This document shows, one piece after another, positions 45,524-49,785 of a DNA stretch of 64,000 nucleotides. Every line of letters begins with the position of its first letter. The first letter of the stretch is position 1. The stretch comes from Bacteroidetes bacterium GWB2_32_14 (GTDB lineage: Bacteria > Bacteroidota > Bacteroidia > Bacteroidales > UBA12077): the NCBI GenBank assembly GCA_001768235.1, contig MENK01000035.1, positions 250,183 to 314,182 on the forward strand, in the 5' to 3' direction. Below the pieces are notes generated by a model. The model was not told the origin of the DNA. It ran no database searches and worked only from the letters and a program-made list of their open reading frames with translations. The translations under genes were made by a program, and so were the position numbers.

Positions 45524-46027
45524 TTAAGTAAAAATTATTTGAGAACCTTCGCCACCAGCCATATTGTAAAATTCACCAATTGTAATGATATCAATTACAT
45601 GATCTGTTAAATCTTTTTTCTCCAGTTTAAACATGTCAACAGCTAATTTGCAAGCATAAATTTCGCCACCACCAGCAGTAATCATATCTAAAAATTCTTC
45701 GACAGGAGGAATATCGAGTTTGTCCATTTGGCTTCGCATCATAGCAGAAACACCGGCTTCAACACCAGGTATTAGTCCCAGAAGTGTTGGGAAGGGTAAT
45801 CCCCCGGGCATACGCATTGCCGGGTTTCCAACTGTTGCTGTATGCAATTTGTTCATGTATTTCTTTGTAATTGCATCGAGTCCAAAAAAAGTAAAGAAAA
45901 CCTTTGCTTCCATACCTTCCATAACAGCACCATTTGCCATTACCAAAGCAGCATAAACATCTTCAATAGTGCCTTTTGCACATATTATTGCTACTTTCTT
46001 AACTTTAATATCTTTTTTTTCTGTCAT
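45524..46027 (-). CDS. DsrE/DsrF-like (DsrE2-type) sulfur-relay protein
   Basis: 167 residues. DsrE2-like fold: VAIICAKGTIEDVYAALVMANGA, AKVFFTFFGLDAI, and a conserved candidate sulfur-accepting Cys in GGEIYACKLAVDMF. It should carry persulfide in a sulfur relay. Last gene of the four-gene operon SQR-like, DUF1641, DsrC-like, DsrE2 (intergenic gaps 18-24 bp). Confidence 0.88.
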   Translation of the reverse strand: MTEKKDIKVKKVAIICAKGTIEDVYAALVMANGAVMEGMEAKVFFTFFGLDAITKKYMNKLHTATVGNPAMRMPGGLPFPTLLGLIPGVEAGVSAMMRSQMDKLDIPPVEEFLDMITAGGGEIYACKLAVDMFKLEKKDLTDHVIDIITIGEFYNMAGGEGSQIIFT

Positions 46028-46045: not shown

Positions 46046-46348
46046 TTATACACAACTGGTTGGTTTATTAATTCCAGCAATTTTAGAAGATAATTTTAAA
46101 GGGCCTCCAGGGAATAAATCGTAAAATCCTTTAATATCTACAATCCCTGATTTACCTACCTTACGGATGGTTAATCCGGCCTGGTTTTCACGAATGTATT
46201 TTAAAACAGCGAAATGTTTGTCGGTAAGTTCTATACCTTCTTCTTTTGCTATTTCTTTTGCTATTTCTTCGTTCCATTTTGTTGAATCTACTAAATAGCC
46301 ATCTTCGGTAACTTCTAGTGTTACACCTGCATAAGTTTTTTGTGCCAT
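46046..46348 (-). CDS. TusE/DsrC-family sulfur carrier with a single C-terminal Cys
   Basis: 100 residues, full length. DsrC/TusE fold: LEVTEDGYLVDSTKWNEEIAKEIA, LTDKHFAVLKYIREN, FPGGPLKLSSKIAGINKPTSCV. The penultimate Cys98 (PTSCV) that carries persulfide is kept, but the second Cys of true DsrC, ten residues earlier, is Ser (KLSSKIAG). So it is TusE-like or a single-cysteine DsrC. In the operon between DUF1641 and dsrE2 it could accept sulfur released by the SQR-like enzyme. Confidence 0.88.
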   Translation of the reverse strand: MAQKTYAGVTLEVTEDGYLVDSTKWNEEIAKEIAKEEGIELTDKHFAVLKYIRENQAGLTIRKVGKSGIVDIKGFYDLFPGGPLKLSSKIAGINKPTSCV

Positions 46349-46372: not shown

Positions 46373-46945
46373 TTATTGAGTTATTGATTTTGTTTCTTGA
46401 GACATGTTTTTTAAGAGTGTTAACATAAACCCAATACTTTGTTTAACTTCAGGACTATTTATTTCTCGCATAATCCTCCATAAAGAGTATTGTTTTGTTG
46501 GTTCATTCGTTGTTTTATTATAAGCAACAACAGCATTATCGAATAGTTTTGCCATCTGGCCCAGGAACTCGAAATATCCTTTTTGTTCAAATTCATGAAG
46601 TTTGTTTGTAAAATCAATTCCTACTTCAGTAATTATCGGACCCATATCCTTAGCCAAATCATTTAAGCTTTCGAACATATCAATAAGTTGAGAAAAATTA
46701 TTGATGTTTCGTATAAACTTAAAAACCAAAGTTTTAAGATCGTCAACATTTAGTTCGATTCCTTGTTTATCAAGCTCTTCAATGGCACTTGTAAATGCAT
46801 CTTTACCTATAATAGACAGGTCGCTAACCAAATCTTCAATTGCTTCGCTTTTTAATCGTTGCTCATTCACATAATGCAGCACCAGATCAAGCTTTTGATT
46901 TATCTGATTAATTTGTTCCTGGATATTATCTGTTTTTAATTCCAT
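46373..46945 (-). CDS. DUF1641 protein
   Basis: 190 residues, largely helical and charged (IQEQINQINQKLDLVLHYVNEQR; GFMLTLLKNMS at the end), matching DUF1641. Members usually neighbour SQR or formate-dehydrogenase-like genes. The role is unknown, possibly a scaffold or partner of the FAD enzyme. It lies 21 bp after the SQR-like gene. Confidence 0.85.
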   Translation of the reverse strand: MELKTDNIQEQINQINQKLDLVLHYVNEQRLKSEAIEDLVSDLSIIGKDAFTSAIEELDKQGIELNVDDLKTLVFKFIRNINNFSQLIDMFESLNDLAKDMGPIITEVGIDFTNKLHEFEQKGYFEFLGQMAKLFDNAVVAYNKTTNEPTKQYSLWRIMREINSPEVKQSIGFMLTLLKNMSQETKSITQ

Positions 46946-46966: not shown

Positions 46967-48196
46967 TTATTTCTTTTTACCAGCCATCGACATTTCTGAT
47001 TCTACCGGGAGTTCTTTCCCTTTAAGAAGAATATGCCAGTAAATCCATCGGAAAATTACTTTCCCGTAATGATTCATTTTTGTATTTTGCAATAAACCAA
47101 AAGGGCCTATCCCGGGTAATGGATAATTTCCGGCAAGAGGTTCCGTTTCATAATTAAAGTCGATAATCGAGCCTTTACCAAACCCGGTTTCGATATAACA
47201 ATTTGCATGTCCGTCGAAATGAGCACGCATTCTTCTGCCTTTTATTGAGCACATTAAATTATCGAACACTACATCTGATGCAAAGTGAACAACAGATCCT
47301 GCTTTTGATGTAGGAATATTTGATGCATCACCCAATACAAAAATATTTTCATATTTCTCGGAACGTAATGTTTGCTTATCGGTAGGGATATAGTTTAGGT
47401 CGTCGCCCATTCCGCTTCGTTCTATTGCATCATCACCTTTGTTTACAGGGACAATGGTTAATACATCGAATGGAATTTCTTTACCATCATAAGATTTTAT
47501 TTTCTTTTCTTTATTATCAACACTTTCGAGATAAAAGTCTGGAATAACGGTAATGTTTTTTTCTTTTAAAAGCTCACCCAACATTTTTGTAGCTTTAGGT
47601 TTTGTAAATGCTCCCGGTAAGGGTGTAACATATGTAATATCTACCTTGTTTCGAATGCCAGCCTTAGTAAAATACTCATCGGCTAAGAAAACAAATTCGA
47701 GTGGAGCTACAGGGCATTTAAATGGAAGTTCGGCAATGTTCATAACCAATCGCCCACCCTGCCATGTTTCAAAAAATTCTCTTAATGCTAAGGCACCTTC
47801 AATTGTATAAAAATCAAAAATCTCCTTGTGCCATAGCTCTTCTTTAAGTCCCGGAGTATCTTCGGGGCTTACATGTGTGCCTGTTGCAATAATTAAGAAA
47901 TCATAATTCAGTATTTGCCCGCCTTCTAAAATAACCTTGTTGTTTTCAGGTTCAATTTTGTCGATTTCGTTAAAAATTAACTTTACGCCCGAAGGAATAA
48001 AATCTGCTTTAGATTTAATAACATCTTGTTTTTTATAGATTCCAAAAGGAATAAACAGGAACCCGGGTTGATAATAATGGGTTTTATGTTTATCAACAAT
48101 TGTAATTTCCCATTCTTCCCGGTCGAGAGCTTTTCTCAATTTATTTGCCATAATTGTTCCGCCTGTTCCGGCACCTAATATTACGATCTTTTTCAT
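46967..48196 (-). CDS. Sulfide:quinone oxidoreductase-like FAD enzyme
   Basis: 409 residues. N-terminal FAD-binding GAGTGGTIMANKLRK, a second nucleotide-binding region ATGTHVSPEDTPG, and GDASNIPTSKAGSV at the FAD-dimethylbenzyl site. The Cys in KCPVAPLEF corresponds to one SQR redox Cys; another (ANCYIETG) lies near the C-terminus, while the first redox Cys of classical SQR is absent. This may oxidise sulfide or a related sulfur compound and reduce quinone. It starts the operon and faces the FNR-like regulator. Confidence 0.85.
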   Translation of the reverse strand: MKKIVILGAGTGGTIMANKLRKALDREEWEITIVDKHKTHYYQPGFLFIPFGIYKKQDVIKSKADFIPSGVKLIFNEIDKIEPENNKVILEGGQILNYDFLIIATGTHVSPEDTPGLKEELWHKEIFDFYTIEGALALREFFETWQGGRLVMNIAELPFKCPVAPLEFVFLADEYFTKAGIRNKVDITYVTPLPGAFTKPKATKMLGELLKEKNITVIPDFYLESVDNKEKKIKSYDGKEIPFDVLTIVPVNKGDDAIERSGMGDDLNYIPTDKQTLRSEKYENIFVLGDASNIPTSKAGSVVHFASDVVFDNLMCSIKGRRMRAHFDGHANCYIETGFGKGSIIDFNYETEPLAGNYPLPGIGPFGLLQNTKMNHYGKVIFRWIYWHILLKGKELPVESEMSMAGKKK

Positions 48197-48237
48197 TTTT
48201 GATTTATTTTATAGTATTTTTATAAAGTTTACTGTTA

Positions 48238-48245
48238 CAAAAATA
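48238..48245 (-). promoter_or_regulatory. Possible -7 box of the sulfur operon
   Basis: On the minus strand this reads TATTTTTG (TAnnTTTG), 41 bp upstream of the SQR-like start. The twin palindromes lie ~47 and ~63 bp further upstream, a fitting place for activator sites. Confidence 0.35.
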
Positions 48246-48276
48246 ACACATATAAACATATCGACATTTTTATATA

Positions 48277-48307
48277 TTATGATATATATCATAAGTGATA
48301 TATATCA
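48277..48307. promoter_or_regulatory. Twin FNR/CRP-type operators between the sulfur operon and its regulator
   Basis: TTATGATATATATCATAA (48277-48294) is a perfect 18-bp palindrome with core TGATATATATCA (48280-48291). The same 12-bp core recurs at 48296-48307. The cores fit TGAT-N4-ATCA, the inner part of the FNR consensus, and their centres are 16 bp apart. They lie between divergent genes, one of which encodes an FNR-like regulator. Confidence 0.7.
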
Positions 48308-48331: not shown

Positions 48332-49027
48332 ATGGAATTATCAGTAAAAGTGAATGATTGTAAAGAGTGTATTTATCGTTCATGGGCATTTAAGAATTTG
48401 TCTGACGATGAATTAAAATTAATAAATAGCCGGAAAAAAGAAAAATTTTTTCGCAAAGGAGAACTTGTTTGTTTAGAAGGCGATACTGTAACATCGTTTT
48501 TATACCTTCAAACAGGTTTGGTGAAACTGTATAAAACGGAATCAAATAATCGTGAACATATAATAAGTATTGCAAAACCTATGGATTTTATTGGTTTGCT
48601 AAGCATTTTCTCTAATACGGTTCATGTTTATTCAATAACAGCAATTGAAGATTCAATTGTTTGCCTGGTAGATTTGGAAGTAATAAAAAACCTTATAAAA
48701 ACAAACGGAGTATTTGCTATTGATTTTTTTGAGAAAATAAGCAAAGTTGCCGATTCGGTTATTAAAACCAGGGTTGATATTAATACACGGCAATTACGGG
48801 GAAGAATAGCATACATACTTTTGCATTTTTCAAAACATATTTACAATTCATCAAAATTTAACTTGCCAATTAGCAGGAAAGAAGTAGCTGAACTTATTGA
48901 TATGAGTACAGAAAATGTAATCCGGGTATTATCGGAATTCAGGAAAGACAAAATTATCCAGATTGAAGGGAAGAATATTGAAATTTTAGATATTAAACGT
49001 CTTGAAAAGATATACGATCTTGGTTAA
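48332..49027 (+). CDS. FNR-like Crp/Fnr transcriptional regulator
   Basis: 231 residues. N-terminal CKEC (Cys10, Cys13), the sensory beta-roll (GELVCLEGDTVTSFLYLQTGLVKLY), a Cys in EDSIVCLVDLE that aligns with FNR Cys122, a dimer helix, and a winged helix-turn-helix (SRKEVAELIDMSTENVIRVLSEF) whose recognition helix keeps Glu and Arg of the CRP/FNR contact set (E..R). The third N-terminal FNR Cys is missing (Ala), so a classical [4Fe-4S] ligand set is incomplete. It is divergent from the sulfur operon and overlaps the convergent mlaF-like gene by 4 bp. Confidence 0.9.
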   Translation: MELSVKVNDCKECIYRSWAFKNLSDDELKLINSRKKEKFFRKGELVCLEGDTVTSFLYLQTGLVKLYKTESNNREHIISIAKPMDFIGLLSIFSNTVHVYSITAIEDSIVCLVDLEVIKNLIKTNGVFAIDFFEKISKVADSVIKTRVDINTRQLRGRIAYILLHFSKHIYNSSKFNLPISRKEVAELIDMSTENVIRVLSEFRKDKIIQIEGKNIEILDIKRLEKIYDLG

Positions 49028-49785
49028 TGATGATTTTTTAGGTCTTTAATTTTTTGTGATAATTTTGATGCAAAAATAAAATTGTTTAATTCTGAATTGT
49101 CTGAATCAAAAATATCGTCTTTTGTACCTTCCCACCATATTGTACCATCTGCAATAAAAATTACTTTATCTCCGATTTCCATAACGGAATTCATATCGTG
49201 TGTATTTACAATAGTTGTCATATTGTATTCGATGGTTATTTCTTTAATTAAGCTGTCGATAACAAGTGCTGTTTTGGGGTCGAGCCCGGAGTTAGGTTCG
49301 TCGCAAAAAAGGTATTTTGGATTAAGAGCAATTGCACGGGCAATAGCTACTCTTTTTTTCATTCCTCCACTAATTTCGGCAGGATACAGTTGATTTGCAT
49401 TAATAATATTTACCCGTTTAAGGCATTCGTTCGCTCTTTCGCGTTTCTCTTCAAAGCTCATTTCTGTAAACATGTCAAGAGGGAACATTACATTTTCCTC
49501 AACCGTAGATGAATCGAACAAAGCACCACCCTGAAAAAGCATGCCAATTTGTTTACGCATGTCTTTTTTATCTTTAAAATTGAGTTCATTGAAAACGATA
49601 TCATCGTAAAAAATTTTTCCTGAATCAATTTCGTGTAATCCTACAATAGATTTTAGAAGTACTGTTTTGCCGGATCCGCTCTGGCCTATGATTAAGTTGG
49701 TTTTACCTTTTTCGAATAAAATGCTTATATTATTTAAAACCTGTTTATTATCAAACTGTTTAGATATGTTTTTTACTTCTATCAT
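49024..49785 (-). CDS. MlaF-like ABC transporter ATPase
   Basis: 253 residues. Walker A GQSGSGKT, Q-loop MLFQGGALF, signature SGGMKKRVAIARAIA, Walker B LFCDEPNSGLDP and switch His in THD. The MKKRV signature and GALFDS are typical of MlaF, which powers phospholipid transport between membranes. It overlaps the mlaE-like gene by 4 bp. No mlaD-like substrate-binding gene is next to it. Confidence 0.92.
   Translation of the reverse strand: MIEVKNISKQFDNKQVLNNISILFEKGKTNLIIGQSGSGKTVLLKSIVGLHEIDSGKIFYDDIVFNELNFKDKKDMRKQIGMLFQGGALFDSSTVEENVMFPLDMFTEMSFEEKRERANECLKRVNIINANQLYPAEISGGMKKRVAIARAIALNPKYLFCDEPNSGLDPKTALVIDSLIKEITIEYNMTTIVNTHDMNSVMEIGDKVIFIADGTIWWEGTKDDIFDSDNSELNNFIFASKLSQKIKDLKNHH

Follow-up and report, generated by a model that had tools for sequence, protein, structure and literature searches.

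FNR, as known from Escherichia coli and Aliivibrio fischeri, recognizes the box TTGAT-N4-ATCAA, binds a [4Fe-4S] cluster through four cysteines (a C-x2-C pair, a third one 6 residues further along, and a fourth within the beta roll), senses oxygen by loss of this cluster on exposure to it, and at class II promoters occupies a site at -41.5. Regulators that respond to sulfide or persulfide and control sulfide-oxidation genes are also known, but these (BigR, SqrR, CstR, and FisR) belong to the ArsR, CsoR, or sigma-54 activator families and not to CRP/FNR. Among the papers listed by full-text literature searches, none was seen to describe a CRP/FNR-family regulator of sulfide oxidation. HcpR2, an FNR-family regulator of nitrosative stress in Bacteroides and other taxa, has a motif, GTAAC-N4-GTTAC, that follows the Pro at position 181, belongs to a family without the FNR cysteine motif, and has a very small regulon beside its target (PMC1274295). 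For Bacteroidota sigma-A, a -7 box, TAnnTTTG, is described at -12 to -5 (PMC9723704).

The window analyzed here is a 64,000-nucleotide stretch of Bacteroidetes bacterium GWB2_32_14 (G000; genome of 3.66 Mb), whose relatives are Bacteroidetes/Bacteroidales metagenome-assembled genomes (MAGs) such as GWA2_31_9b. Between a gene for sulfide:quinone oxidoreductase (sqr) and a divergent gene for an FNR-like regulator (fnr), it contains twin palindromes that we interpret as a dual operator of that adjacent regulator. By this interpretation, to which we assign a probability of roughly 0.7 from comparative sequence evidence, regulator dimers would occupy sites centered at -52.5 and -68.5 of the sqr promoter and activate the sqr-DUF1641-tusE/dsrC-dsrE2 operon from a constant position with respect to the -7 box; the same occupancy would cover the start region of the regulator gene and repress it, with redox as the most likely signal. 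The CRP/FNR fold, the TGAT-N4-ATCA core, the recognition Glu and Arg, and three of the four cluster cysteines are shared with FNR. In contrast, the third cluster cysteine is absent, A is usual before TGAT, and the proximal site lies near -52.5, with two sites at a fixed 16 or 17 bp, instead of at the class II position. The site preference and the cysteine set thus differ from those of FNR; with BigR, SqrR, CstR, and FisR the putative switch has in common a sulfide-oxidation target but not the protein family.

The sqr operon and its divergent FNR-like neighbor

The sqr gene (46967 to 48196, minus strand) encodes a type III sulfide:quinone oxidoreductase, which scored 660.8 bits against a cut-off of 525 with NCBIfam model NF049943 (SQR_III_seleno). 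It is followed on the same strand by genes for a DUF1641 protein (46373 to 46945; PF07849), a TusE/DsrC-family sulfur relay protein (46046 to 46348; PF04358, TIGR03342), and a DsrE2-like sulfur carrier (45524 to 46027; PF13686, with NF047629 under its cut-off). The sqr score is well above the cut-off of a selenoprotein subtype, yet the reading frame has no internal stop and therefore no selenocysteine codon read as one in this copy.

On the plus strand, the regulator gene (48332 to 49027) encodes 231 amino acids; matches that exceed the cut-offs of PF00027 (68 bits) and PF13545 (59.5 bits) place the protein in the CRP/FNR superfamily. The top Foldseek matches of its AlphaFold model (mean pLDDT 87.6, poor at residues 1 to 14) were to holo-FNR of A. 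fischeri, at TM 0.81 to 0.82. Scores stayed below the cut-offs of the curated FNR model NF008365 (59.9 versus 228 bits) and of the FnrL model (65.8 versus 300 bits). The cysteines of the window's protein are Cys10, Cys13, Cys47, and Cys111. Three of these were near invariant among 81 orthologs (Cys10 in 79, Cys13 in 81, Cys111 in 80) and correspond in the alignment to cluster cysteines of FNR, of whose four only the third has no counterpart; Cys47 was present in 26 of the 81, the window's protein among them, and an extra Cys8 and Cys32 in 37, always jointly in the printed alignment rows. Ile197, conserved in at least 90%, occupies the position of Ser212 in FNR. The regulator has the FNR fold but is not a canonical FNR. 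Tail to tail with its gene, and overlapping it by 4 bp, lies an ABC-transporter ATPase-like gene (49024 to 49785), a homolog of which seems to adjoin the regulator in several relatives.

Paired sites in the window and among relatives

The two identical 12-bp cores, TGATATATATCA, lie inside the 135-bp intergenic gap (17% G+C). The sqr-proximal predicted operator spans 48280 to 48291 (center 48285.5), within a perfect 18-bp palindrome at 48277 to 48294; the sqr-distal, fnr-proximal one spans 48296 to 48307 (center 48301.5), with its last base 24 bp before the fnr start codon. Position and sequence bear out the first-pass annotation of this DNA, which had reported identical cores 16 bp apart, center to center, in the gap. 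One core by itself occurred at about chance frequency (11 copies with up to 2 mismatches in the window versus 7.9 expected; 3 exact copies of the 12-mer in the genome). The paired cores, in contrast, were beyond chance: TGAT-N4-ATCA twins at 16 or 17 bp arose in none of 200,000 gap sequences simulated with a first-order Markov model, and a 16-bp twin was found once per genome in 17 of 25 genomes of the family, versus 0 for a reversed-pattern control.

Regulator orthologs (E <= 1e-46) were present in 79 of 393 genomes of the order; in a phylum sample of 395 genomes, the only match at this threshold was in the window's own genome. The counted set comprised the 81 loci, of 102 examined, with sqr divergent from the FNR-like ortholog. 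The other 21 had no divergent sqr piece and were left out; L010 and L019, which end close to a contig edge, were left out despite having a pair. For scoring, the two best sites were chosen from all spacings between 13 and 40 bp, and a threshold of 14 of 16 was then applied. Two TGAT-N4-ATCA-like sites stood 16 bp (n = 28) or 17 bp (n = 32) apart at 60 of the 81 loci, whereas shuffled sequences were even, at about 3 per spacing. These 60 loci cover 26 of 39 families, with 17 from the window's own genus, and so provide the phylogenetic footprint that had been proposed as a check. The 21 without a scored pair include L101, whose pair lies outside the 330 bp examined. Across whole genomes, the 16/17-bp twin was found in 25 of the 393 from the order, compared with 2 of 393 for the reversed pattern; by coordinates, 23 of the 25 have it between an fnr-like gene and sqr, and the others before sqr without an adjacent fnr (G412) or inside an unrelated open reading frame (G353). 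That the palindromes are AT-rich simple sequence, or a hairpin with no regulatory role, would fit the low G+C of the gap and the near-chance frequency of single cores, but the TGAT and ATCA arms and the spacing are kept while the site center varies (ATAT, AAAT, or AATT), and the excess over the reversed pattern also speaks against it; we consider this practically negligible. The twin palindromes are, on their conservation, a real and strongly conserved putative control switch.

The recognition-helix residues Glu194, Asn195, and Arg198 were invariant in 81 of 81 orthologs, as were Arg182 and Glu184. The base 5' of TGAT was A in 72 of 94 perfect sites and T in only 5, by which the preferred half-site would be ATGAT and the full site ATGAT-N4-ATCAT, versus TTGAT in FNR. 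The first-pass annotation had matched the cores to FNR half-sites and noted a recognition helix retaining Glu and Arg: the helix residues held throughout, and the inner TGAT-N4-ATCA of the FNR box is matched exactly, but the outer base mostly departs from it. HcpR2 likewise has a very small regulon beside its target. An HcpR2 identity was rejected, given the different site motif and the Glu (Glu194, 81/81) that stands here in place of the Pro; the three retained cysteines are a further difference from HcpR2.

Site position relative to the sqr and regulator promoters

A predicted sqr -7 box, TATTTTTG (TAnnTTTG; 48238 to 48245, minus strand), lies 34 bp from the proximal operator and therefore puts the site centers at about -52.5 and -68.5. 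The register is shared: TAnnTTTG occurred 33 to 35 bp from the proximal site edge on the sqr side at 41 of the 60 pair loci and in 17 of 26 families (34 bp, n = 34; 35 bp, n = 6; 33 bp, n = 1), compared with a mean of 0.09 and a maximum of 2 of 60 in a shuffled control. Sites among the pair loci accordingly fall near -52.5 and -68.5 or -69.5. The exact motif at 33 to 35 bp was missing from 19 of the 60, including the locus of the nearest relative (L005). At 25 loci from other genera, base counts revealed no -33 TTTG, which proves nothing because a -33 box is likewise reported as not found in Flavobacterium johnsoniae (PMC7366714). A fixed distance from operator to -7 box is shown by activators, whereas a repressor needs none, and this suggests that the neighboring regulator turns the sqr operon on. 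The control of the sulfur operon that had been proposed from the window alone is strengthened by this distance, with more support for activation of sqr than for control in general. A palindrome, TGTTA-N6-TAACA, lies across the predicted sqr -7 box (48233 to 48248), and similar ones were seen near the -7 box in five distant relatives (L029, L088, L103, L114, and L118); it was rejected as a further operator, with 8 occurrences genome-wide versus 16 for the reversed control and thus no enrichment.

The spacing of the sites bears on how they would be used. At 16 bp, or about 1.5 helical turns, one dimer would lie almost across the helix from the other, and the strictness of the 16/17-bp spacing suggests that they touch or that both are read by RNA polymerase. 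It is nevertheless conceivable that the two are independent single operators, the proximal one for sqr and the distal one for fnr, bound by dimers that do not interact. Where no pair was scored, one site in the proximal register is mostly retained (with TAnnTTTG at 34 or 35 bp, it was perfect in 11 of the 21 loci and matched at 7 of 8 positions in a further 3), so the proximal position is the most conserved and one site can suffice for sqr. Independent sites would drift, however, and the spacing stayed at 16 or 17 bp although scored pairs came from loci with sqr and fnr 123 to 299 bp apart and the two genes are 515 bp apart in L101; moreover, G412 keeps both sites, with the -7 box at 34 bp, without an adjacent fnr. 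We therefore consider independent operators unlikely and retain the dual operator. Single sites also occurred in two MAG loci labeled Chlorobiota (L060) and Bacteroidetes (L061), each with the -7 box at 34 bp. A more distant regulator branch beside sqr (L128, L130, L132, L032, G069, and G197) has a single site about 56 bp from the -7 box, centered near -74.5, which is a different activator register.

On the regulator side, 19 to 26 bp separate the end of the distal site from the regulator start codon in loci of the genus, and TAnnTTTG, where visible, lay 0 to 20 bp from the site (n = 10) or about 70 bp from it (n = 2). A protein bound there would lie over the promoter of the regulator gene, which makes autorepression likely; the crowding of the start codon suggests this form of the autoregulation that the first-pass annotation had predicted.

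The neighboring regulator as the probable binding protein

At E <= 0.001, the regulator has six matches in the window's genome, and several paralogs per genome could also bind the sites. A further set comprised sqr loci of genomes in which no ortholog was found (E <= 1e-46), with no Crp/Fnr piece adjacent. This count of 15 leaves out three loci with too little upstream DNA (G298, G344, and G013), five with a more distant fnr piece beside sqr (G069, G226, G309, G282, and G040), and one truncated sqr hit (G278). The pair was present in 2 of the 15 (G172 and G412), single perfect sites elsewhere in three (G197, G271, and G355), and neither in 10. Where an ortholog was present but not seen divergent beside sqr, two loci had the pair (G177 and G273) and one a single site (G130), with -7 boxes at 34 to 36 bp. 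A different Crp/Fnr paralog as the main binder would account for G172 and G412, which have the pair without a detected ortholog, both in incomplete bins. Against this, the pair tracks the ortholog (60 of 81 loci with it adjacent versus 2 of 15 with none found), even as those 15 genomes encode other Crp/Fnr proteins. A paralog is thus quite improbable as the main binder, and the adjacent regulator is the preferred candidate.

Signal and a possible second target

Between a gene that reads in translation as thiL-like and one that reads as sufB-like is the third genomic copy of the core. A single TGATATWTATCA precedes the sufB-like gene in 15 of 15 genomes of the genus with the gene start in the locus (L221 to L235) and is absent in 5 of 5 sister-genus genomes; the count leaves out L240, whose match is cut at a contig start, and the partial matches L242 and L243. 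TAnnTTTG follows 50 bp downstream of the site in 13 of the 15 and 49 bp in one, so that this site shares the -68.5 register with the distal site of sqr. Its flanks, however, read TTGAT, and binding by another paralog is conceivable. In many genomes of the genus, a second palindrome, AAGATT-AAAC-AATCTT, was seen just downstream of TGATATWTATCA in these regions. The sufB site would link the switch to Fe-S cluster assembly, as fits a cluster-bearing sensor.

The regulator's signal would be either Fe-S/oxygen or sulfane sulfur. Most likely it is redox, received by an Fe-S cluster on Cys10, Cys13, and Cys111 plus a variable fourth ligand. Sensing of sulfane sulfur (persulfide) by cysteine thiols rather than a cluster would change the signal and leave the operator model as it is; it would suit a target operon for sulfide oxidation and sulfur relay and a protein in which these cysteines are near invariant while the third FNR ligand is missing. 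All three, however, fall exactly on ligand positions of the FNR cluster, which has four, and the conserved site before sufB, an Fe-S assembly gene, fits a cluster sensor; thiol sensing is possible, with the odds somewhat against it. Spacing and Cys8 corresponded closely among the loci (16 bp, 28 without and 0 with; 17 bp, 2 without and 30 with), but the match needs only 3 and 2 changes on the tree, with one independent pair; a coupling of operator spacing to cysteines is not claimed, as the tree cannot separate it from common descent.

More broadly, and as a tentative and rather doubtful generalization, the locus may exemplify a class of Bacteroidota promoters at which a pair of FNR-type dimers, spaced by 16 or 17 bp and almost on opposite faces of the DNA, acts as a single activating unit at -52.5/-68.5 for the TAnnTTTG polymerase of the phylum. 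An FNR branch would there have swapped the third cluster cysteine for alternative ligands (Cys8 and Cys32 with 17 bp; mostly Cys47, or none, with 16 bp), coupling sulfide oxidation, and in the genus also Fe-S assembly, to the sulfur or redox state. Transcription activation in Bacteroidota, with their unusual -7 box, is poorly understood, and the predicted switch offers an order-wide, sequence-defined case of fixed activator geometry that is open to in vitro work. Its FNR-like protein is a candidate CRP/FNR-family regulator of sulfide oxidation.
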